From Candidatus Nitrosomaritimum khambatensis (GTDB lineage Archaea > Thermoproteota > Nitrososphaeria > Nitrososphaerales > Nitrosopumilaceae), in contig WVWY01000026.1 in assembly GCA_011773785.1 (NCBI GenBank), positions 4,521-68,520 of the forward strand: 64,000 nt of DNA, written 5' to 3'. Of this stretch, positions 52,754 to 63,863 are shown in pieces. The position numbers and the translations under genes are program-made. The first letter of the stretch is position 1; each line of letters begins with the position of its first letter. Under the pieces are notes generated by a model. It made no database searches. It worked only from the letters and a program-made list of their open reading frames with translations, and had not been told where the DNA came from.

Positions 52754-52954
52754 TTAGGTTTCTAATTTTTGTCTTTTGCCTCGAGCTTTAGTTCTTAAAA
52801 CTGCCTTACAACATACGCATCGAATACTTTCTGTTGTTAAAAAGAGCCCACAAAAAGTACAACGCTTCTGTCCAAGTTCGTATCTTACCCTGTTTGGAAC
52901 AGGTTCTGCTTTGTGCATTTGGCATATTCCTCTACATGTTCTTCCCACTACCAT
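52754..52954 (-). CDS. Small zinc-ribbon protein in the TFB operon
   Basis: KRCTFCGLFLTTESIRCVCCKAVLR; start overlaps TFB stop. Confidence 0.65.
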   Translation of the reverse strand: MVVGRTCRGICQMHKAEPVPNRVRYELGQKRCTFCGLFLTTESIRCVCCKAVLRTKARGKRQKLET

Positions 52955-53850
52955 TCACCTCCTATTTTTTTTCTAATTTCTTTTGACCTATCTCTGATGG
53001 TCACAGAACTAATTCCCGAAATCTCGGAAATTTTTAATTGAGAAATTTTTTCGTTATTCCTAACAGAAGCCAAGTTAACAACTGCAGCTGCCATGGACAT
53101 AGGATTTTTACTGGTACTAATTCCAGCATCCAAAACCCTACTCATTAAACGGATGGCATCCATTCGAGTTTTCTTGCCAACTCCAACGTCATTTAGAACT
53201 CTTTCTACAAAATCTGCTGGACTGTAGGTTTCTGGAGTAATATCTAGTTCATTTACCAAAAATCGATAGTTCTTTTGGAGATTTTTACGCTTGATATTGC
53301 CTGCATCTGCTATGTCCTGTAAAGTTCTGGGAGTTCCAGTTATCCTGCAAGCAAGATATACAGTGGCACATAAAATTCCAGCAGTAGAACGTCCGCTTAG
53401 TATTTTTTTTCCAGCAGCCTTTCTAAATATGTGTGCAGATTTTTCGACAACAGATTCTGGTAGTCCTAATTTGGCACGTATTCCGTCTAGTAAGGAAAAT
53501 GCCTTGTTAAAAGACTTGTATTCTTGTTTTGATTTACTGTTTCTATCCCATAATCTTAATCGATAAAAAATTTTTGAATTTTCAGTAGAGAGACTTTTTC
53601 CAGTAGAATCCTTGTTAGATTGTTGGATAACAGTAGATAGTCCCATATCAGACATTTTCAAGGTAAGTTTTGTTCCGACTCTGGTGTTTGATTCATACTC
53701 CTCTTTTGTGAACCCAGTTTGTTCAGGACCAATATCGATTGCTTTTTCCAAAATCACAGATCCGCAGGTTCCGCAGGCAATCTCTCCAGTATTGAAATCA
53801 GTTATTGGAGAAAGATTTTTGCAATATTGGGAATGAATCACAGACATCAT
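52948..53850 (-). CDS. tfb: Transcription initiation factor IIB paralog
   Basis: Zn ribbon CKN...IACGTCGSVI; two cyclin repeats (AGILCATVYLACRITGTPRTLQDIADAGNIKRKNLQKNYRFL; AAAVVNLASV...KISEISGISSVTIRDRSKEI). Confidence 0.93.
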   Translation of the reverse strand: MMSVIHSQYCKNLSPITDFNTGEIACGTCGSVILEKAIDIGPEQTGFTKEEYESNTRVGTKLTLKMSDMGLSTVIQQSNKDSTGKSLSTENSKIFYRLRLWDRNSKSKQEYKSFNKAFSLLDGIRAKLGLPESVVEKSAHIFRKAAGKKILSGRSTAGILCATVYLACRITGTPRTLQDIADAGNIKRKNLQKNYRFLVNELDITPETYSPADFVERVLNDVGVGKKTRMDAIRLMSRVLDAGISTSKNPMSMAAAVVNLASVRNNEKISQLKISEISGISSVTIRDRSKEIRKKIGGEW

Positions 53851-54050
53851 TTTTCAGTCCTCCAGTTTGTGTGAGCCGCCTTTTGTGGATTAAAAATTAG
53901 TAAAGTACCACAGAATTCACATGAGATTCCAAATTCATAGTTTTCAACACTTGATTGACCGCATTCAGTACAAATTTTGAGTCTAGGATCAACTAGTAAA
54001 TTTTTTTCTGTAAAATTGTAATCAACATTGGGGACGGTAAGCTTGCTCAT
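53847..54050 (-). CDS. Small zinc-ribbon protein, first gene of the TFB operon
   Basis: LKICTECGQSSVENYEFGISCEFCGTLL; 4-bp overlap with tfb. Confidence 0.7.
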   Translation of the reverse strand: MSKLTVPNVDYNFTEKNLLVDPRLKICTECGQSSVENYEFGISCEFCGTLLIFNPQKAAHTNWRTEK

Positions 54051-54070
54051 AACCCTTTTTAGTTGTTAAG

Positions 54071-54108
54071 ATATTTAAGATGGTGGTAAATTTGGTTACT
54101 AGTGCTAA
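54071..54108 (-). promoter_or_regulatory. P1: duplicated element and TATA box upstream of the TFB operon
   Basis: Minus-strand sense TTAGCACTA (54100-54108), TTACCACCA (54081-54089), then TCTTAAATATC; 19-bp spacing. Confidence 0.7.
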
Positions 54109-54148
54109 TTCCCTATTTACAATAAAAAATTAAAAAATAATTTTAGAA

Positions 54149-55027
54149 CTAGCTAAGGTTTAAAGGAATGCTAGCACTTCCCCATGGTTCGCTGACGCGG
54201 AAAACATATTCCTTTGATGGATCGTATATGAATTCTGTTCCACCATAGCCTATGTTTGGTCCAAAGAAGATGTTGAATGTTCTTGATTCACCTGGTTTTA
54301 TCACAAGTAGTCCGCTTGTAAAATCAGTTGAAGCATATTTGAAAGCCTTGTTGCCATTCCAAACGTCATAATTACATACAGAAGGACCAGAACACATCAA
54401 TTGAAGATTTTCATTGCTAGTATTTTCCACAAGCATGTCAATGTTGAGATGAGCGTTTCCCGAGGCAGTGATTTCAACTTCTGCACCAGGGAAATAGAAC
54501 ATTGCAGGTCCTATGTTGTAAACCTCTGATTTACTTTTAATTTCTGAAACTTTTATCTCATGTTTGACTGCCCTTTCACAATCCAATCTTTCATATGCCT
54601 TTTTGATATTTTGACATTCAGCTAATTTTGCTTCTAGTTTTGACAACTCAGTGTTATCTGAACTTGCATCGGTGGATTCTTCTGTTCCAGATGAAACAGA
54701 TATCAGCCCGGTTCTAACCATGTATTGAATTCCTTGCAAAAAGGAATCATTGTCTATATCGCCATTAGCCCACCATCCTGCATTGTTTTTGACCCATTCA
54801 GGAACACCTTGGGACTTTTCAGAAGAAACCTGTGTTGGAGGTACATCAATTATTCCTTCATTGATAAGAAATTCAATCGCTTGTAGGAATTCGGATTCAG
54901 AGATAGTTCCATCAGCCCACCATCCTGCATTGTTTTTGACCCATTCAGGTACTTGCTCTGCAAAAGCAAAGGGTGCAACTGATCCAAGAAGTAATATTGC
55001 TGCTATTGCTGTTGTTGTAGTTTTCAT
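54149..55027 (-). CDS. Secreted protein with two PEWVKNNAGWWA repeats
   Basis: Signal peptide MKTTTTAIAAILLLGSVAPFAFA; repeats VPEWVKNNAGWWADGTISESEFLQAIEFLINEGII and VPEWVKNNAGWWANGDIDNDSFLQGIQYMVRTGLI. Promoter position favours start 55027, not 55072. Confidence 0.8.
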   Translation of the reverse strand: MKTTTTAIAAILLLGSVAPFAFAEQVPEWVKNNAGWWADGTISESEFLQAIEFLINEGIIDVPPTQVSSEKSQGVPEWVKNNAGWWANGDIDNDSFLQGIQYMVRTGLISVSSGTEESTDASSDNTELSKLEAKLAECQNIKKAYERLDCERAVKHEIKVSEIKSKSEVYNIGPAMFYFPGAEVEITASGNAHLNIDMLVENTSNENLQLMCSGPSVCNYDVWNGNKAFKYASTDFTSGLLVIKPGESRTFNIFFGPNIGYGGTEFIYDPSKEYVFRVSEPWGSASIPLNLS

Positions 55028-55049
55028 TGAGTTGAATTTGCGTTTGTCA

Positions 55050-55085
55050 TATATAAGATAGTGCCAATTCACTAGCTAGTGCCAA
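55050..55085 (-). promoter_or_regulatory. P2: duplicated element and TATA box upstream of the secreted repeat protein
   Basis: Minus-strand sense TTGGCACTA (55077-55085) and TTGGCACTA (55059-55067), 18-bp spacing, then TCTTATATATG. Confidence 0.7.
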
Positions 55086-55104
55086 TTGTCCCTTGTTCAA
55101 AAGG

Positions 55105-55143
55105 TTAGCACTATTTTCTAATTGTGACTTTTTTTATTAATAA
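55105..55143 (+). promoter_or_regulatory. P3: single element and TATA-like sequence upstream of the sRNA candidate
   Basis: TTAGCACTA (55105-55113), then TTTATTAA (55133-55140); predicted TSS about 55162. Confidence 0.5.
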
Positions 55144-55161
55144 TGATAATGCAATTAGATT

Positions 55162-55225
55162 GAGGATGCCTTCTCCCTAGTTGTTAACAACTAGATCCCG
55201 TCTACCGAAGCATCCTCGTTTTTTT
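55162..55225 (+). ncRNA. Small structured RNA inside the element-bearing island
   Basis: 8-bp perfect closing stem GAGGATGC (55162-55169)/GCATCCTC (55210-55217), perfect 18-nt palindrome CTAGTTGTTAACAACTAG (55177-55194), T7 run immediately after (55219-55225). Confidence 0.6.
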
Positions 55226-55232
55226 CTATTTC

Positions 55233-55270
55233 TAGTGGTAAGTAAGTTATATTGGCTAGGGGTTTAAAAG
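55233..55270 (+). promoter_or_regulatory. P4: element pair and TATA box upstream of YbgA-like gene
   Basis: TAGTGGTAA (55233-55241, inverted), TTGGCTAGG (55252-55260), TTTAAAAG; 19-bp spacing; proximal match weak. Confidence 0.5.
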
Positions 55271-55291
55271 CAATCATCAATTCAATCCGTT

Positions 55292-55852
55292 ATGAATGTC
55301 GCATCTAACGCTAAGGGGCCTCAAAAATTACTTGAAATGCCCAAGCTGACCGAAGATGATGTGTTTGGTTATGTTATGGAGCGTTTCTCTGAACTCAAAA
55401 ACGAACCAAGTATTGATGATTTAGTTACATTCCATTCTAATAACAAATATCTTCTAATGGCCCATAACCAGTCCAAATTAAAAATTCTGGGCAACCTAGT
55501 GGCAAATCATAAAAAATTGACATTAAAGAAAATTTTAGAAAAATACGAAAGTGCCCTCATTGAAACCCTAAATTGCACTCCTACAACCAAAACAAACACA
55601 AATGTACTGATGCACCTGTTTGGCTTTTTTGGAAAACACCTTAATCAAAACGAAAAAAAGATTTTTCTTCAATTTATCAAAGATTATCGGGAAGATAAGA
55701 TAACCCTTGGTAAAGTTTTATCAGAAATAGAACCTATAACATACAGATTGAATAATCTCTACTTGATTAGTCAAACCTATTTCTTACTCTATGCCGAGGC
55801 CAAAATGGGAAATATTTTGGAAATGTATGACCCACAATATTTTAGAGATTAA
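55292..55852 (+). CDS. YbgA-family (DUF1722) protein
   Basis: FHSNNKYLLMAHNQSKLKILGNLVANHKK...LMHLFGFFGKHLNQNEKKIFLQFIKDYREDKITLGKVLSEI...YLISQTYF. Confidence 0.75.
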   Translation: MNVASNAKGPQKLLEMPKLTEDDVFGYVMERFSELKNEPSIDDLVTFHSNNKYLLMAHNQSKLKILGNLVANHKKLTLKKILEKYESALIETLNCTPTTKTNTNVLMHLFGFFGKHLNQNEKKIFLQFIKDYREDKITLGKVLSEIEPITYRLNNLYLISQTYFLLYAEAKMGNILEMYDPQYFRD

Positions 55853-55889
55853 TTAAAACATTCTAAAGATACCTGTTTTTAATCGTTAG

Positions 55890-55927
55890 TAGGCACTAGG
55901 ATATAATTTTACCACCTGTTAAATATC
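55890..55927 (+). promoter_or_regulatory. P5: duplicated element and TATA box upstream of DUF523-DUF1722 gene
   Basis: TAGGCACTAG (55890), TTACCACCT (55909-55917), GTTAAATATC; 19-bp spacing; ATG about 26 bp after the TATA box. Confidence 0.7.
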
Positions 55928-55947
55928 ATTAAGGAAATAAAGTCATT

Positions 55948-56913
55948 ATGACAAAATCAGTCAAACCCATACTAGGAATCAGCAAATGTCTTGAATTTGA
56001 TAACTGCCGATACGATGGAAAAATTATTGGTAATGATTTTGTTAGAAAACTAAAAAGTCATGTTGACTTTATTCCTGTTTGTCCAGAGATGGGTATAGGT
56101 TTAGGAAGTCCAAGACAACCTATTAGATTAGTTAGGATTAAAGGCAAAAAGAATTTGTACCAACCCTCAACTGATGAAAATTTGACTCAAAAAATGGAAG
56201 ATTTTTCCAACAAATTTTTCGAAGACCTTGAGGAGATTGATGGCTTTATTCTAAAACATTCATCACCAACTTGTGGTGTGCGTAATGTCCGACTGTATCA
56301 CAAAATTGGAAAACAGGTTGGATTTGATCAAACCGTAGGCATGTTTACAGAATTGCTTAGTAAGAGATTCCCATATTTAGTAATAGAAGATGAGGCAAGA
56401 CTACGAAATTCTGTATTGAAAGATTCCTTTTTGACCAGGGTTTTTACAATGGCGAGATTAAGAAATTCCCTATCTTCAAAAGATGAAACTATACAATTCT
56501 TCAAGGATAATGAAATGTTGTTTATGTGTTATGATAAAAATAGTTCCAAAAAACTAATGGATTTGCTATCTTCAAAACCCGAGGAATTAGAAGAAAAGGA
56601 CAAGATAATTCAACTAGTCTATAATTTATTAAATAGAATTCCAAATTCTGATTCATTATTTGGCACCTATCAATACATTTTGTCTATGTTTTATGATAGA
56701 TTAACCATTCCCGAAAAGGATTATTTCAATGCAACAATGTCAGGATTCTCTGCAGGTAATGTCATGCCTTCAGAAATTTCCACTTTATTGTATTCATGTG
56801 CCTTGAGATTTGATGTGAAATCGATATTGTCCCAGACAATCTTTGAACCTTATCCAAAGGAATTGGTGCAAAATAATTCAGAACGAAGGGAATACTCCCT
56901 ATTGAAAATATAA
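55948..56913 (+). CDS. DUF523-DUF1722 (YbgA-like) fusion protein
   Basis: PILGISKCLEFDNCRYDGKI...FIPVCPEMGIGLGSPRQPIRLV...FILKHSSPTCGVRNVRLY; C-terminal region resembles the neighbouring gene. Confidence 0.85.
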   Translation: MTKSVKPILGISKCLEFDNCRYDGKIIGNDFVRKLKSHVDFIPVCPEMGIGLGSPRQPIRLVRIKGKKNLYQPSTDENLTQKMEDFSNKFFEDLEEIDGFILKHSSPTCGVRNVRLYHKIGKQVGFDQTVGMFTELLSKRFPYLVIEDEARLRNSVLKDSFLTRVFTMARLRNSLSSKDETIQFFKDNEMLFMCYDKNSSKKLMDLLSSKPEELEEKDKIIQLVYNLLNRIPNSDSLFGTYQYILSMFYDRLTIPEKDYFNATMSGFSAGNVMPSEISTLLYSCALRFDVKSILSQTIFEPYPKELVQNNSERREYSLLKI

Positions 56914-57023
56914 AGTATTTTCCTAATTCCTATTACCACGATAGCAGTAAAAAATCGGTTTGTGATATTAAGTTAGAGGGTAATAAAAAGGAGATAAGAG
57001 GTAATTCAAAAAATTTTGGAAGG

Positions 57024-57602
57024 CTACCAAAATCCTTTGATTCTTTTTACCATCTTATAGTCGTCATGTAGGATAAATGATACCATCAATCCCATCACAG
57101 TTCCGAAAAGCACATGGAGCCAAAGTCCATACCACAGTACAGTGTCTGAACCTACTAACAAAGAATACAATGCCTCAAGTTCTTCAACTGAAAGTCTATC
57201 CTGGTCTGTGATACTAAATTCTGCGACGATAGCAGGTGTCATAATCAAGTGGTTGATTGGGAGGAAAAATACGGTAAACACAATTAGACCTGTCACTGCT
57301 CCCATTAGAATTCCCTTTGGAGGAGTAATGACTTGGAAAGTTCTCCATTTTGAAGCAGCCGCAGAATAAGTTGCTCCAATCAATGCAGCTGCTGACATGT
57401 GAGCCATAAATCCAATCGCTATTGCTTCGGCACCTTCAAGTCCCATTGGTATACCAACAGTCTTGTAAAATGTTCCATTTGGAATTCCTAGTTGTTGGTC
57501 GATAGCAAAGAATGAAGAAAATAAGGCACACCCAGCTACCAGCCCTGCAACGGCTCCTACCTTTGCTTTTCCTAATGTATGGTGTTGTTGCTGTTGCATC
57601 AT
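57024..57602 (-). CDS. Multi-TM membrane protein with Gln/His-rich N-terminus
   Basis: MMQQQQHHTLGKAKVGAVAGLVAGCALFSSFF; 5-TM-like; resemblance to CbtA is only suggestive. Confidence 0.6.
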   Translation of the reverse strand: MMQQQQHHTLGKAKVGAVAGLVAGCALFSSFFAIDQQLGIPNGTFYKTVGIPMGLEGAEAIAIGFMAHMSAAALIGATYSAAASKWRTFQVITPPKGILMGAVTGLIVFTVFFLPINHLIMTPAIVAEFSITDQDRLSVEELEALYSLLVGSDTVLWYGLWLHVLFGTVMGLMVSFILHDDYKMVKRIKGFW

Positions 57603-57620
57603 GGACCATGATGGGTTGTG

Positions 57621-57660
57621 ATTATATTTAATGGGGGCTAACTTTTTCTTCTAGTGCTAA
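57621..57660 (-). promoter_or_regulatory. P6: duplicated element and TATA box upstream of the membrane protein
   Basis: Minus-strand sense TTAGCACTAG (distal 57652-57660), TTAGCCCCC (57633-57641), ATTAAATATAAT; 19-bp spacing. Confidence 0.65.
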
Positions 57661-57712
57661 TAAAAACAAAATTTTGTTAATAATGATTTGTTTGATAAAA
57701 AATAAAAAATGA

Positions 57713-59092
57713 TTAAATTGGTTTTCCTTTGTATTGGTAATCAATCACTTTGTGAAAGAGATTATGAGAAGCAATTATACCTATTACGGTAAGTGCTATT
57801 CCCACAAAATTTCTTATTATGATTACGGTACTAGGATCTCCAGCAATCAGAGACATTTGGAATGCCACATAGAAATTATCAAACAGCCAAAAAGCCATTG
57901 TGACCCACGTTAAGATTCCTGCCATCAAATAACCTAATCTTGTTTTGTTATAGACAAATAGAATAGAGAATCCAATTGTAAGATACCAAATCCCAGAGGC
58001 TAAAAGCCATAGAGGTTCATAAACTTCGGGTCTATTGTCCAACCAATAATAGGTGCTTCCGCATATACCATAAGCAAATAGACTTACCAACAAAATTTTT
58101 TGGTTGATTTTGAAACCAGTTTTTTCTTCTCTTTTGTTCATTTTTGGTGGATTGGTATTGATTTCTTTAGTGGCAATTTCTATTGCCTCTCTAACGGATT
58201 TTAGTTTAATTGGAATTATTTTTTTGATATCGTTATTTCTTACCACAGTATCATGAACAAGACTATCAATTAGAGGTCTTGCTAAGGAAGCTTTTACAGG
58301 TGTAATTAGGTCTACCCAATAAGAGGACAATCTGGTTGTCAGAAATGGAATTTGAATAACAAAAAGATTTTTGTTCAAATAGGCCGAATAGTCTCTCATT
58401 AATTCTTCATAGGTCATTTTGTCTGGGCCTCCAATATCATAGATCTTGCCAGAAGTTTCTGGATGCTCAAAACAACCAACTAAATATTCCACAACATCAT
58501 CCACAGCTATGGGTTGTGCTAATGATTTTACCCATGAAGGACATACCATTACTCTTAATCTTTCTACAAGGTATCTCAACATTGCATAAGAACCTCCTTG
58601 AGCTCCGATAATTATCGAAGCTCGTAATTCAGTCACAGGAATAGAGCCTGATGATAAAATCTCACCTACTTGTTTTCGGCTTTGCATGTGTGGAGATAAT
58701 TCATCACCCTCGTTAATCAAACCTCCAAGATAGATTATTCTTTTAACTCCAGCTTTTGTAGCTGCGGAAAGAAAGTTTTTGGCTTGAACTTTTTCTCGAG
58801 ATGCAAAATCTTCCCATTCTTCCTTGCTTCCCTCCATCGAATGCAGTAAATAGTAAGCTACATCTGTTCCCTCTAATGCAGTAGTAAGATTATCTACATC
58901 AAAAACATCTGCTTTTACAAATTTAACATAAGGCTGGTCTGGTATCTCTCTTCGGGACATTCCTTTTACTTTAATGCCCATACTCGCAAATTTCTCAACA
59001 AGTCTTGATCCAATAAATCCCGTTGCGCCAGTTACAATAATAGAGTAGGGCCGATTTTCGGCGACCACATCACTATCTGCCTTTTGAGACAT
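57713..59092 (-). CDS. SDR/NAD-epimerase with C-terminal TM domain
   Basis: IIVTGATGFIGSRLVEKFASMGIKVKGMSRR; C-terminal 3-4 TM segments. Confidence 0.85.
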   Translation of the reverse strand: MSQKADSDVVAENRPYSIIVTGATGFIGSRLVEKFASMGIKVKGMSRREIPDQPYVKFVKADVFDVDNLTTALEGTDVAYYLLHSMEGSKEEWEDFASREKVQAKNFLSAATKAGVKRIIYLGGLINEGDELSPHMQSRKQVGEILSSGSIPVTELRASIIIGAQGGSYAMLRYLVERLRVMVCPSWVKSLAQPIAVDDVVEYLVGCFEHPETSGKIYDIGGPDKMTYEELMRDYSAYLNKNLFVIQIPFLTTRLSSYWVDLITPVKASLARPLIDSLVHDTVVRNNDIKKIIPIKLKSVREAIEIATKEINTNPPKMNKREEKTGFKINQKILLVSLFAYGICGSTYYWLDNRPEVYEPLWLLASGIWYLTIGFSILFVYNKTRLGYLMAGILTWVTMAFWLFDNFYVAFQMSLIAGDPSTVIIIRNFVGIALTVIGIIASHNLFHKVIDYQYKGKPI

Positions 59093-59095
59093 TTA

Positions 59096-59305
59096 TTAGA
59101 TTACACCTACTCTGGGAAGTTTCTCTAATTTCCTCTTGCGGTTTACCCTAAGACCTACCCCAACTGTTACCAATCCAACGAGGGTCCAGAAAGCACCACC
59201 CATTCCGTATGCAGAATGTAGAGTATAATCTAATTCTCCAGCAATGGCAAAAGATACTCCTAAGGCAGTAATTATTCCACCAGATATAACAATAGTTTTA
59301 TCCAA
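59096..59305 (-). CDS. Small 2-TM membrane protein
   Basis: TTG start after GGGAGGTGA preferred to the track ATG at 59353; LDKTIVISGGIITALGVSFAIAGELDYTL... Confidence 0.6.
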   Translation of the reverse strand: MDKTIVISGGIITALGVSFAIAGELDYTLHSAYGMGGAFWTLVGLVTVGVGLRVNRKRKLEKLPRVGVI

Positions 59306-59415
59306 GGATTTCACCTCCCTTACTTCCAAATATAGTTCGGCATGCCAGAACAACTCCGGGATATTTGCATCTCAGATAAAATGAATTCTTCATGGTGTGT
59401 TTTTTGTCGTTATTT

Positions 59416-59452
59416 TATTTAAAATGGTGCCAATATTTTTTACTAGTGGTAA
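59416..59452 (-). promoter_or_regulatory. P7: duplicated element and TATA box upstream of the membrane protein-SDR operon
   Basis: Minus-strand sense TTACCACTAG (59444-59452), TTGGCACCA (59425-59433), TTTTAAATAAAA; 19-bp spacing. Confidence 0.7.
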
Positions 59453-59500
59453 ATAGAACAGTCATGAAATGATTTAATCAATGACAAAAAGGTAATATTT

Positions 59501-59538
59501 TTGGCACTAGATGGATAATTTGGCATTAAATATATACC
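59501..59538 (+). promoter_or_regulatory. P8: duplicated element and TATA box upstream of the CarH-like gene
   Basis: TTGGCACTAG (59501), TTGGCATTA (59520-59528), TAAATATATACC; 19-bp spacing. Confidence 0.7.
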
Positions 59539-59561
59539 ATAGCAGGATTAAAAATTTTAAA

Positions 59562-60404
59562 ATGGTATACATCAGGGCTAAAAAAATTAAAGGCGACCAA
59601 TATCTCTACCTTGTTAAAAGTGTCTGGGACAAGCAAAAAAACACCTCAAGGCAAGAGATTGTCAAGTATCTTGGGAAGGCAGCTGATGTTCTGAAAGACG
59701 ATATACCTCCTGATTACAGAAATGATCCAAAGATCATTTCATTTTTGGCATCCCACAATCCTGAGAATATGGCCAAAAAAGAGGAGGCCAGGAAAAAGAC
59801 AAAAGAGCAGCTTTACAAAAAATTTACTCAAGGAGATATCAAGTCATCTTTGAAAACTTATGAAGATTATGTAAAATTATTCAATTCTGCAGATTTTTTT
59901 GATAAAATTTTACGTCCAGTCATGTACTTGATTGGAGAGAATTGGGCCAATAACAAAATCAGTATAGCCACTGAACATGTAGCCTCTAATGTTGCCCAGG
60001 GACTTGTTAAAATTATAATGGATAGAAATCAGGGAGAATCAAATAAGAAAAAGATACTTGTTTGCGTTCCACAAGGAGAAGAACATAGGTTAGGATGCGA
60101 TGTTCTAGAAACTTATCTCAGTTCAAAAGGATTCAAAGTTTACAATTTAGCAAATTCGGCTCCAAATGAATCTATTATCAGTTTTATTGAAACTGCAAAG
60201 CCAGACGTTGTTTTTGTCTCAATAACATTAGAGGACAACATAAAGCCTGGTCAAAGGCTGGTACGGAAAATCACAGAGGCATACCAAATTCCAATTTTTG
60301 TGGGAGGTTTTGCCTTACAATCTGAAAAAACCCCAAAATTTGAGGCTACTGTTCTAAAAGACACATCCTTAGAACATTTACCCAGATTAATCAGAGCAGC
60401 ATAG
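59562..60404 (+). CDS. CarH/LitR-type B12-binding photoreceptor-like protein with non-MerR N-terminus
   Basis: Four-helix cobalamin cap ILRPVMYLIGENWANNKISIATEHVAS (Wx9EH) and Rossmann B12 domain GEEHRLGCDVLETYLSSKGFKVYNL (ExHxxG); N-terminus MVYIRAKKIKGDQYLYLVKSVWDKQKNTSRQEIVKYLGKA. Track start 59511 lies upstream of the predicted TATA box. Confidence 0.85.
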   Translation: MVYIRAKKIKGDQYLYLVKSVWDKQKNTSRQEIVKYLGKAADVLKDDIPPDYRNDPKIISFLASHNPENMAKKEEARKKTKEQLYKKFTQGDIKSSLKTYEDYVKLFNSADFFDKILRPVMYLIGENWANNKISIATEHVASNVAQGLVKIIMDRNQGESNKKKILVCVPQGEEHRLGCDVLETYLSSKGFKVYNLANSAPNESIISFIETAKPDVVFVSITLEDNIKPGQRLVRKITEAYQIPIFVGGFALQSEKTPKFEATVLKDTSLEHLPRLIRAA

Positions 60405-60405
60405 T

Positions 60406-61758
60406 CTAGTTAATAATTGGTTTTTGTTGTCTCAGGTATTCGAGTATTTTTGGAAGACACAGAATTGAACTATGCGCAGCCGAATCGGTTCCGATTCCAT
60501 AACTTACAGTAGAGTCCCCAACGAAGAAAAGACCATCTATTCCGTTTACCTTGTGTGGCATTTTTGATTTCCATACTTTTCCTGGTTTCTTGACAACTGA
60601 TTCCACCAGACTCCATCCCATTGGCCTTTCCCAAAGTAAGGAACTTTTGAAATCCGGATAGATTGCGTTTATTTCTTCTTTCATTTTTTCTACAGTTTCA
60701 CGTATTTTTTGGGGGCTTTTCACATATTGTGGAGGTACAGGTGTTCCTGTAATTATCAAATGCTCCCCTTTAGGTGAAACTTTTGGAGTCATATTAGAAA
60801 TGAAAAAAATTCCCTTTGCAGTATATTTTTCTCCAACAGGAAAAACAACATGACGAGTATCTAATTTTTTAGATAAAGCAAAATGTACTTCAATAACGGC
60901 AGTGGTATCATTTAGATTATCAATTTTTTTTAAAAATTTTTGATCAAAAACTTCCTTATCAAATAACTGCTTAAGAGCTTGGTATGCAGGATATGAAATA
61001 ACAATACAATTAGTCTCTATGAAATTACCTTTATTATCAATAAATCCAGTAACCTGGTTGTTTTCAATTAGGATTTTTTTTATGCTGCTATTAAGCAAAA
61101 TTGAATTTCCTTTTGATTGAATGTAATTTGAAAGGATTTGAGAAATTTTATCATAACCTCCATCAGAAGGATATGCAAATTCGCTAGTACCGCCTTTGAA
61201 TGGATTAGCCCTAATTATTGTTCTTGCAAATTCACCCAAGGAAATGTTTTTGGCGCTATCAGCAAATGCCAACATGCAAACTGCTTCAAAAAAGGCATTA
61301 GTTTTCTCATCTAAATTTTTGGTAATATCAACAAGAGAGGTGTCATCCCAAGATTCCGTTTTTTCAATCGATGAAAATGCAAGAGGTAAAAGAATTCTTA
61401 ACAAAGCAAGCCTGCTTTTTAATGGAACCATAGACAATTTCAGAAGATCTAGTATGCCCTTTGGATAGATATGAAAAGAATCGTCAGAATAAAATGCAAT
61501 ATCATCAACTCTACCTAGTTTTAATTGAGATTCGATTCCAATTTTCTTGAGAATTTGATAAATCGCTGATTGAGTGTAAAATGGCATAATATGAAACCCG
61601 TTATCTAAAATGTGATTTTTGTAGGTGATTGATGCAGTCCTTCCACCAACTTTACCATATTTTTCATATGTTGTGGTCCTAATACCCTCTTTTGCCAAGA
61701 GAGCAGCCATAGTTAAACCTCCTACACCTGCACCAATTATTGTGACATTTTGTGTCAT
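60406..61758 (-). CDS. CrtI-like phytoene desaturase/FAD amine-oxidase-family protein
   Basis: VTIIGAGVGGLTMAALLAKEGIRTTTYEKYGKVGGRTAS...DGLFFVGDSTVSYGIGTDSAAHS. Confidence 0.82.
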   Translation of the reverse strand: MTQNVTIIGAGVGGLTMAALLAKEGIRTTTYEKYGKVGGRTASITYKNHILDNGFHIMPFYTQSAIYQILKKIGIESQLKLGRVDDIAFYSDDSFHIYPKGILDLLKLSMVPLKSRLALLRILLPLAFSSIEKTESWDDTSLVDITKNLDEKTNAFFEAVCMLAFADSAKNISLGEFARTIIRANPFKGGTSEFAYPSDGGYDKISQILSNYIQSKGNSILLNSSIKKILIENNQVTGFIDNKGNFIETNCIVISYPAYQALKQLFDKEVFDQKFLKKIDNLNDTTAVIEVHFALSKKLDTRHVVFPVGEKYTAKGIFFISNMTPKVSPKGEHLIITGTPVPPQYVKSPQKIRETVEKMKEEINAIYPDFKSSLLWERPMGWSLVESVVKKPGKVWKSKMPHKVNGIDGLFFVGDSTVSYGIGTDSAAHSSILCLPKILEYLRQQKPIIN

Positions 61759-61778
61759 TGCTTGTTGATCTTTATTTT

Positions 61779-61817
61779 GATATTTATCTTGCTGGCATCA
61801 TAATAATCTAGTGCTAA
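61779..61817 (-). promoter_or_regulatory. P9: duplicated element and TATA box upstream of CrtI-like gene
   Basis: Minus-strand sense TTAGCACTAG (61809-61817), ATGCCAGCA (61790-61798), AGATAAATATC; 19-bp spacing. Confidence 0.65.
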
Positions 61818-61821
61818 TTTT

Positions 61822-62268
61822 TTATTTTTCTAAAATTTTCTCATGAAGCTCACACTGATAAATGAATTCATCCATTATTTTGTTGACTTGGTTTTTGACA
61901 AATTTTTGTAGTGGATAAAAAATCACGAAAATATTATTGAAAGAAAGATTGACTTCTATTGTTATTGCAGTTCCTTTACTTGCTTTTTCATAATATTCAA
62001 CAAAGGATGAACCTTTTAGGGGCCCAGATAAAATCCAAATTTTATGAATGTTGGGCTTTTGTATATTATGTTTAGTTTGTATTTTTCTTCTTATTCTTAA
62101 GAAAGATAATTCCTCCTCTACTAAAAGTTCAGAGTTATTTGCCTGGGTAATTTTCAACGATTTGAAATATTTGGGAAACAATTTTGAAAAGTTTTCTAAA
62201 TTGGTACTCAACTCGAATATTCTATCTCTATCTAGAGATGTCGTTCTATGAAGTACAAATTTCAACAA
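61822..62268 (-). CDS. SRPBCC-family protein
   Basis: TTSLDRDRIFELSTNLENFSKLFPKYFKSLKI. Confidence 0.7.
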   Translation of the reverse strand: MLKFVLHRTTSLDRDRIFELSTNLENFSKLFPKYFKSLKITQANNSELLVEEELSFLRIRRKIQTKHNIQKPNIHKIWILSGPLKGSSFVEYYEKASKGTAITIEVNLSFNNIFVIFYPLQKFVKNQVNKIMDEFIYQCELHEKILEK

Positions 62269-62627
62269 TGTATTGACATTCCTAAAAGATAGTCTTTAAG
62301 ATTAGTTTTGCCAACAGGAATGTCGGGGTATAACTCTTTAATCGATTTGCATATCAATACCATTGCATTTTTTACTGAATCAGTTTTTTCCGGATCAGTC
62401 AATGGGAATAATCTTATTGTTGTTTTTGAATCACCAGACAATACTTCGATAAAGAATTCTTGATTAGTCTCATCAATGACAAGAGTAGAATAAAGGGCAT
62501 TGTTTTTGGCTGAATTTAGATACATTTCTTTTACACGAATTATTGAGTCTGACTTCAAAAATATTGGTTGGAAGGCATCTTGAATCTTCAGGAGGTCAAC
62601 CTTTCCGTTTAATACTATATGTGGCAT
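62262..62627 (-). CDS. Conserved hypothetical protein
   Basis: 121-aa ORF overlapping the SRPBCC gene start. Confidence 0.6.
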   Translation of the reverse strand: MPHIVLNGKVDLLKIQDAFQPIFLKSDSIIRVKEMYLNSAKNNALYSTLVIDETNQEFFIEVLSGDSKTTIRLFPLTDPEKTDSVKNAMVLICKSIKELYPDIPVGKTNLKDYLLGMSIHC

Positions 62628-62658
62628 GTTTTTTCGATGTTTTTTGATACTCTGGTGC

Positions 62659-62838
62659 TCAAACCGTGAATAAACGTTCTTTGAATTCCTCTACGAACAT
62701 GTAAAATTTACACCTCGCGCATGCCAGGAAATCTTTAGAGTTGCGTCCATTTGAAGCGGTAACCAATACTAATGCAGGTGACCTACACTTTGGGCAATCT
62801 GCCACCAAATCCCTTCGATTTGAATATTGAAGATTCAT
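62659..62838 (-). CDS. Small zinc-ribbon protein (59 aa)
   Basis: MNLQYSNRRDLVADCPKCRSPALVLVTASNGRNSKDFLACARCKFYMFVEEFKERLFTV; below the track size cutoff. Confidence 0.7.
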   Translation of the reverse strand: MNLQYSNRRDLVADCPKCRSPALVLVTASNGRNSKDFLACARCKFYMFVEEFKERLFTV

Positions 62839-62857
62839 ACTGTACTTGAGTGAATAT

Positions 62858-62895
62858 GATATTTAACTAATGCCAACCAAAATTGATAGTGCCAA
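62858..62895 (-). promoter_or_regulatory. P10: duplicated element and TATA box upstream of the zinc-ribbon operon
   Basis: Minus-strand sense TTGGCACTA (62887-62895), TTGGCATTA (62868-62876), GTTAAATATC; 19-bp spacing. Confidence 0.7.
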
Positions 62896-62988
62896 TTTTT
62901 TACCTTTATTCCAATACGATAAAAAATCCAATTTATCATGTATAATCTCATTGAAATCCTATTTAGATAATTAGTAAAAAATAATGTT

Positions 62989-63270
62989 ATGAGAAAAATT
63001 TTTGTTATTATTGTTGTAGCAATTCCAATTCTACTAGCATTAGTATTTGTTACAAATTCTGTTGCATCTAATACATTTCCCTTGATAATTACTTCGACCA
63101 CCCAACAAGAAAAAATCCAACAAAACATACAACAAACCTATAACTCAAGTCTTCAATATTGCCAAGAAAAATACCAGGAAGGAAATTTTAAGGATCAAAT
63201 GAATTATGAAGAATGCCTTGAAATTGTAGAGAGTTGGTACGTAGATAGTATTAAAAATTCTCAACCCTGA
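62989..63270 (+). CDS. Small secreted hypothetical protein
   Basis: Signal peptide plus Gln-rich body. Confidence 0.55.
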   Translation: MRKIFVIIVVAIPILLALVFVTNSVASNTFPLIITSTTQQEKIQQNIQQTYNSSLQYCQEKYQEGNFKDQMNYEECLEIVESWYVDSIKNSQP

Positions 63271-63317: not shown

Positions 63318-63863
63318 CTATTGAATGCGGAATTTCTGTCCTAAAGTTTTTCCCATTAATTGCAAAGCATATCTACACACATTTGGGGTTAGGGTGAAAA
63401 ATCCTCTGAAATTTCCATCCTCATATTCCTCAGCAATTAAGCCAAATGGCCCATAAGGTCCTCGAGTAATCACACTCCAAACATTTACCAGGTTTGTGTT
63501 CTTGCAGTTAATTACTTCAATTTTATCAGGAGTTTTGATTTGTGTTTTGCCATAATTTGCAATGACCCAAACTTTAGGTATATTTTCAATCATTTTTTGA
63601 TATCTTTTTTCTACAAATTTGTAACGAGCTATTTCCTCGAAGGTAGCAAGAAGTGGCTCACCATTATCTTGTGCGTATTTTTCTATTAATTTGCTCAAAT
63701 TGTAAAGAGGTTTCCTTTCAGAATGAAAATTATGATACCCTTTTTCAATAAATTTATCTAACTTCCATAGTGGTAAGATAGAATTATCAAGATCATGCCA
63801 TTCGGCAAGTTGAGGAAATTGTTCCCATACAGAGGCCACAAAACCAGAATATGGAGTTACCAT
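63318..63863 (-). CDS. Conserved protein, possibly DICT-like sensory domain
   Basis: PLLATFEEIARYKFVEKRYQKMIENIPKVWVIANYGK...PYGPFGLIAEEYEDGNFRGFFTLTP. Confidence 0.4.
   Translation of the reverse strand: MVTPYSGFVASVWEQFPQLAEWHDLDNSILPLWKLDKFIEKGYHNFHSERKPLYNLSKLIEKYAQDNGEPLLATFEEIARYKFVEKRYQKMIENIPKVWVIANYGKTQIKTPDKIEVINCKNTNLVNVWSVITRGPYGPFGLIAEEYEDGNFRGFFTLTPNVCRYALQLMGKTLGQKFRIQ

Follow-up and report, generated by a model that had tools for sequence, protein, structure and literature searches.

A stretch of 64,000 nucleotides from the ammonia-oxidising archaeon Candidatus Nitrosomaritimum khambatensis (contig C12, positions 4521-68520; hereafter the window, in which a position is the C12 position minus 4520) contains a block of genes whose promoters carry a duplicated box next to the TATA box. 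This tandem element is real and is conserved across the group. The block is probably the light-response regulon of an archaeal adenosylcobalamin (AdoCbl) photoreceptor encoded at 59562, a protein that has a cobalamin domain related to those of CarH and LitR and a non-MerR N-terminus. Light inhibition of archaeal ammonia oxidation is well documented, and ammonia-oxidising archaea make B12. In the literature searched, there is no earlier report of an archaeal light or B12-sensing regulon of such kind. With this result, the proposed light response of ammonia-oxidising archaea has a regulator with a name, an exactly defined operator and a list of targets, which could settle how they respond to light. 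If the proposal is true, cobalamin photoreception, so far reported in bacteria, reaches archaea, the CarH-type sensor has a new DNA-binding module, and B12 is linked to the survival of these archaea in sunlit water.

The host assembly is 1.37 Mb in size, consists of 42 contigs and is 89% complete. It was compared with 250 genomes of the family (f1), 665 kb of related loci, 83 regulators of ammonia-oxidising archaea, and 87 related promoters from which an average was made. L-numbers denote related or neighbouring loci, G-numbers genomes, and g-numbers genera.

The Tandem Promoter Element

The initial annotation had listed nine tandem promoters, and eight of them stand. These class I sites (Table 1) consist of TTRGCACTAG, 9 nt, TTRSCAYYA, 1-2 nt and a TATA box like TTAAATATC; in each, TTAGCACTAG is repeated in tandem at a distance of 19 bp (18 bp in one), ending 1-2 bp before TATA. 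The ninth, the 55233/55252 pair, is no direct repeat. Its 55252 half (TTGGCTAGG) is merely a partial proximal box, and the promoter has a single inverted box (class II). The average promoter reads TTAGCACTAG-N9-TTAGCACTAG-TTAAATA, in which one 10-mer is found twice with first bases 19 bp apart. Weak proximal boxes are found at 57633 and 61790. The 55890/55909 site has one mismatch in each box, and its TATA box (TTAAATATC) and ATG are in register. In 77 of 103 high-quality promoters the proximal box lies 28-33 nt from the start codon, distances that are consistent with leaderless mRNAs, as had been suggested earlier.

The element is rare elsewhere in the genome. A scan of 1.37 Mb with TTRGCACTA-N10-TTRSCAYYA, allowing at most one mismatch, returned seven matches, a count that, like the other genome-wide counts, rests on pattern searches. 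Six matches are located within C12:58.6-75.1 kb, which is the block and its continuation, and the seventh is at C39:39021; the reversed pattern gave none at the same threshold. A pattern with an N8 gap in place of N10 showed no excess. In the related loci, there are 95 pairs at 19 bp, 21 at 18 bp, 8 at 20 bp and mostly 0-6, typically about 2-3, at other spacings, while the reversed-motif control has 2 pairs at 19 bp. The 11-kb block contains nine pairs at 18-20 bp, against a mean of 0.31 and a maximum of 3 in 100 dinucleotide shuffles. Outside the block, the element (at most three mismatches) was found upstream of none of the 51 open reading frames in window positions 1-52000. The genome is AT-rich, but the shuffle, reversed-pattern, spacing and outside-block controls are all negative and rule out a chance or compositional artefact, which we regard as having next to no probability. 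Common ancestry of the flanks is rejected because the genes are unrelated and conservation is limited to the boxes and TATA, in line with what the initial annotation had argued. An RNA element was also considered and rejected; Rfam has no match in 54000-63200.

Rarity elsewhere and conservation upstream of orthologs strongly support the earlier claim that a single regulator acts at a duplicated site beside the transcription factor B (TFB) recognition element (BRE) and TATA. That claim had assigned this block to the regulator. The regulon stands and its limits do not, as it extends past the window and includes at least one unlinked site (C39:39021).

The single inverted box is a second conserved promoter class. 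Each of the 18 DUF1722 genes examined has TAGTGSYAA 32-56 nt upstream, some 20-25 bp ahead of TATA. In the window genome, class II promoters precede the DUF1722 gene, an operon that ends in a photolyase gene, and a WrbA-like/UvdE pair. The exact class II pattern has six matches genome-wide, all on C12 (control, 0), and three of these are class I distal boxes seen from the opposite strand. The photolyase gene directly follows DUF1722 in L074 and L080. A predicted hairpin of very high stability (55162-55218; -20.2 kcal/mol, z -5.2) containing CTAGTTGTTAACAACTAG lies between the divergent genes at 54149 and 55292.

Conservation and Linkage to the Regulator and Light-Repair Genes

Conservation upstream of orthologs in related genomes, which had been named as a check on the element, was found. 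The first 30 regulator orthologs all have the tandem element and TATA in their promoters, with flanks that are otherwise unaligned. With an element called at up to three mismatches and 14-60 nt from the start codon, 67 of the 83 regulators carry it in their own promoter (49 perfectly). These belong to several families, extend to 35% protein identity and include Nitrososphaerales; the spacing is 20 bp in genus g13.

Among the 250 family genomes, the element (at most one mismatch) is found in 123 and the regulator in 122, with 17 for the reversed-pattern control. Both are present in 108, the element only in 15, the regulator only in 14 and neither in 113 (p = 2e-37). The same association is seen within genera (both/element only/regulator only/neither): 58/2/3/32 in g14, 9/0/0/9 in g11 and 12/0/0/5 in g16. 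The window genome belongs to a genus other than g14, of which the complete genome G087 is a member; G087 has regulator and element. The mismatch in G157 is an assembly break.

Target promoters are conserved as well. Conserved carriers in the related loci include the secreted-type gene 54149-55027, the FAD oxidoreductase, the small-protein/SDR (short-chain dehydrogenase/reductase) unit, and genes that encode 61-aa, 106-aa and 127-aa proteins and a family of about 188 aa. The element at 55059 is kept at about 20 orthologs of the secreted-type gene, that at 59425 also precedes the small-protein/SDR unit in relatives, and orthologs of the FAD gene have it upstream in L074, L075, L080, L081, L082, L084, L085 and L086. 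The elements at 54081 and 62868 are kept in relatives, the former upstream of orthologs in L073 and L109 of the same genus and the latter in L073 and L107. The SDR gene is near the regulator in most loci, including those of Nitrososphaerales.

The sites are also linked to light-repair genes. Class II boxes stand at the photolyase operon and the WrbA/UvdE pair, and class I elements at the RudS-like, SDR and FAD genes. Photolyase is encoded in 53 of the 250 genomes: 51 have the regulator, and the other two (G015 and G045) have the element. In 27 genomes photolyase lies within 12 kb of the regulator gene. That lineages of these archaea from sunlit water have photolyases was known before (PMC9239080, PMC6593220), and the literature searched contains no paper linking archaeal photolyases to a regulator.

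A CarH-Like Cobalamin-Binding Regulator

The 59562 protein has a basic N-terminal three-stranded beta domain (residues 1-40) followed by a four-helix and Rossmann cobalamin domain with the motifs G-E-N-W-x9-E-H and G-E-E-H-x-x-G. CarH homologs are defined by Wx9EH plus the cobalamin motif; Wx9EH caps AdoCbl and separates CarH from MetH-type domains (PMC8156234). It is present in the window protein (W-ANNKISIAT-EH) and in 82 of the 83 regulators; the sole exception is a local paralog, likewise without the element. The lower-ligand motif ExHxxG is present as EEHRLG and has few variants among relatives. The SignatureFinder signature of light-responsive cobalamin domains is GxxW/EH/GxxH/GxxxP (PMC11796333). 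Its first three parts are found as GENW, EH and GEEH, and at the GxxxP position, the window protein and its nearest relative have AxxxP (ANSAP), and most Nitrosopumilaceae orthologs GTSxP.

The best NCBIfam model is that of CarH (NF052513), which matches residues 77-268, the cobalamin domain only, with 62 bits against a cut-off of 400. In a profile search of solved chains, photocobilins were closest and CarH and CtMerR were among the matches; the top Foldseek matches were photocobilin, TtCarH and CtMerR. The sheet formed by residues 1-40 is conserved and is not a MerR-type winged helix; it has no Pfam match, no PDB relative by sequence and no fold match below E 0.4. Judged by these searches, the regulator is CarH-like at its sensor end and not CarH at its DNA-binding end, since the matches fall in the cobalamin domain and the N-terminus is without a PDB relative.

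A degenerate paralog of the regulator is encoded at L005:15212-16415 (C12:83211-84414, minus strand). It is 41% identical, has lost the W and EH, has no element upstream and is followed by a 111-aa partial copy; the arrangement resembles the myxobacterial CarH/CarA split. Between this paralog and the WrbA/UvdE pair lies a gene for a MEDS sensory-domain protein (L005:16880-17440), and MEDS domains have been reported fused to light-responsive cobalamin domains (PMC11796333).

Comparison With Known Systems

CarH forms a dark AdoCbl tetramer from head-to-tail dimers on direct repeats and releases in the light (PMC8156234). The pair of head-to-tail archaeal boxes would suit binding of this type. 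The archaeal system shares with CarH/LitR of Thermus, Bacillus and Myxococcus the cobalamin domain with Wx9EH and ExHxxG, a direct-repeat operator that overlaps the promoter, and light-protection targets beside the regulator gene; CarH supplies the closest NCBIfam model and is among the top folds. It differs in that the archaeal regulator is without the MerR winged helix, the promoter is of TATA/BRE type, and UV repair takes the place of a carotenoid operon. The CarH operator comprises tandem 11-bp repeats (PMC8156234), whereas the archaeal one comprises 10-bp boxes spaced 19 bp.

The gene set of the block parallels LitR/CarH regulons (PMC9758184, PMC11417400), which supports its reading as a light regulon. 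Class II LitR regulons include photolyase, short-chain dehydrogenase and FAD-dependent oxidoreductase genes (PMC9758184), and RudS genes often sit in light-responsive operons (PMC11417400). Class II LitR proteins of Pseudomonas (PplR/PmlR) are similar in gene set, in the presence of RudS in such operons and in the light induction of the regulator gene there. They are different in that they act with LOV proteins, have MerR DNA-binding domains and work at bacterial promoters. The 55948-56913 protein has the TudS-then-DUF1722 domain order of the RudS tRNA desulfidase, while the archaeal block has an extra stand-alone DUF1722 gene with its own class II promoter. The photocobilins (SasPcob, AbDPcob) and CtMerR are the top cobalamin-domain matches in sequence and fold and share the GxxW/EH/GxxH signature, but photocobilins have a biliverdin domain in addition and CtMerR has one of MerR type, and neither is archaeal. 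Archaeal Lrp/Ptr2-type regulators bind immediately upstream of BRE/TATA. Their sites have the same position by BRE/TATA as the present element, whereas the protein family and the sequence are unrelated.

Proposed Mechanism and Alternatives

We infer that the 59562 protein binds the boxes directly and responds to light through AdoCbl. In the dark, the AdoCbl-bound regulator would assemble via its cobalamin domains, and this would set the N-terminal domains on the pair of TTAGCACTAG boxes arranged head to tail. The proximal box lies over the BRE position beside TATA, and the bound regulator would block TFB and the TATA-binding protein (TBP). On illumination, the Co-C bond would break and the assembly fall apart, which would free the promoters and turn on photolyase, UvdE, the RudS-like desulfidase, the oxidoreductases, the TFB paralog and the regulator itself. 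Class II promoters, with an inverted box about 20-25 bp upstream of TATA, would drive DUF1722, the photolyase-ending operon and the WrbA-like/UvdE pair, and the DUF1722 promoter would reach the photolyase gene that stands behind DUF1722 in several relatives. Dark repression is somewhat the likelier sign of regulation, and it is our first choice because in class I promoters the BRE position is taken up by the proximal box. More tentatively, a cobalamin photoreceptor with an undescribed DNA-binding domain could use the two box geometries, the direct tandem beside TATA and the lone inverted box farther upstream, to answer one light signal in different ways; for instance, one set of genes might be derepressed and the repair set activated.

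Several points weigh against this proposal. Archaeal activators, too, can use a site upstream of TATA. In g13 the presence of the regulator does not track that of the 19-bp element, probably owing to the 20-bp spacing in this genus. The regulator comes and goes together with its targets as one unit: in the 23 regulator-less genomes tested, the 61-aa target gene is gone from all and the SDR gene from 22. Co-occurrence is therefore partly co-inheritance, i.e., loss of the block. G015 (99% complete) and G045 have sites (4-5 elements) and photolyase, and no regulator was found in either assembly; it may fall in an assembly gap or have been replaced. In the window protein, A takes the place of G in GxxxP of the published light signature, and sequence and fold searches recognised no DNA-binding homolog of its N-terminal domain.

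The same regulator and light signal may instead work by activation, with TFB/TBP being recruited. This variant, the probability of which overlaps that of the light regulon, is less likely though quite possible. Sites just upstream of BRE/TATA, as here, are a usual place for archaeal activators, and the class II box stands clear of TATA. However, in class I promoters the proximal box and the BRE position overlap beside a good TATA box, and those CarH/LitR proteins whose characterisation is described in PMC8156234 and PMC9758184 repress.

It is unlikely that a different DNA-binding protein reads the element and that the CarH-like protein only belongs to the regulon or works via this other reader, as short-LOV does via class II LitR in Pseudomonas. 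The lack of a DNA-binding homolog for the N-terminal domain and the two genomes that keep sites with no regulator detected fit such an arrangement. Against it, the element marks the regulator gene's own promoter across several families, element and regulator are lost together within genera, and no other gene family in the loci carries the element as widely.

That the light-regulon protein senses cobalamin supply or redox state in place of light is improbable. In favour of this are its cobalamin-binding character and the related folds that are seen in enzymes, but its targets are genes for UV and light-damage repair, not for cobalamin synthesis or uptake, and the AdoCbl-capping Wx9EH (PMC8156234) is nearly universal among the regulators.

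The least credible of the specific alternatives, and a very improbable one, is that the element is an extended BRE of an alternative TFB, with the TFB paralog(s) of the block acting like an alternative sigma factor. The proximal box does abut TATA where TFB binds, and of two TFB genes in the block one is behind an element. However, the distal copy is two helical turns upstream and cannot be a BRE, and in class II promoters the box points the other way and is remote from the BRE. The initial annotation had named both the 59562 protein and the TFB paralog as candidate readers; the former is now the more likely and the latter the less likely, as the element is found in the regulator's promoter throughout the class and at the TFB operon only in the window's genus.

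Genes of the Block

Table 1. Promoter elements and genes of the proposed regulon (window coordinates unless a contig or locus is given).
Feature	Position	Strand	Remarks
Class I element	54081-54108 (distal 54100-54108, proximal 54081-54089)	-	Zinc-ribbon gene 53847-54050 and overlapping TFB gene; 0 mismatches
Class I element, 18-bp spacing	55059-55085	-	Promoter of secreted-type protein (start 55027); 0 mismatches
Class II single inverted box TAGTGGTAA	55233-55241	-	Upstream of DUF1722 gene 55292-55852 (+)
Class I element	55890-55917	+	Promoter of TudS-DUF1722 gene 55948-56913; 2 mismatches
Class I element	57633-57660	-	Promoter of 57024-57602; 2 mismatches
Class I element	59425-59452	-	Promoter of small protein 59096-59353 and SDR/NmrA gene 57713-59092; 1 mismatch
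Class I element	59501-59528	+	Promoter of the CarH-like regulator's own gene; 0 mismatches
Class I element, weak proximal box	61790-61817	-	Promoter of FAD amine-oxidase/phytoene-desaturase-like gene; 2 mismatches
Class I element	62868-62895	-	Promoter of zinc-ribbon protein 62659-62838; 0 mismatches
Further sites past the window	C12:69541(-), 71013(+), 71465(+), 75122(-), 85489		Contig rescan
Unlinked site	C39:39021	+	Perfect TATA box and 188-aa gene in register
Zinc-ribbon protein and TFB paralog, overlapping genes	52948-54050	-	TFIIB repeats E 4e-30; behind 54081-54108 element
Secreted-type protein, AEQVPEWVKNNAGWW repeats	54149-55027	-	Conserved regulon member
DUF1722 protein	55292-55852	+	Pfam PF08349 E 6e-32
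TudS (2-thiouracil desulfurase, DUF523)-DUF1722 fusion, RudS-like	55948-56913	+	PF04463 E 1e-34 (10-149), then PF08349 (190-303)
NmrA/SDR-type NAD-binding protein	57713-59092	-	Pfam PF01370/PF13460/PF05368
CarH-like cobalamin-binding regulator, 280 aa	59562-60404	+	Pfam B12-binding and B12-binding_2
FAD-dependent amine oxidase/phytoene-desaturase-like	60406-61758	-	PF01593 E 2e-27; weak NCBIfam crtI/HpnE-type matches
Photolyase-ending operon	L005 6308 to 3859	-	Class II box at promoter

Among the other products encoded in the block are photolyase, UvdE, an HhH-GPD glycosylase and a WrbA-like flavoprotein. The secreted-type protein has no Pfam or NCBIfam match. The small conserved proteins L005:3072-3455 and L007:5079-5642, both with a class I element, and window 63318-63863 have no Pfam match, and assignment of some small regulon proteins as DICT domains was rejected as unsupported by Pfam. 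TFB paralogs at window 52948-53850 and L005:2115-3008 flank the block, and the element in front of one of them suggests a light-responsive alternative TFB in the window's genus. A gene for a WelO5-type 2-oxoglutarate-Fe(II) oxygenase (L005:5251-6024) immediately precedes that for photolyase, apparently within one operon.

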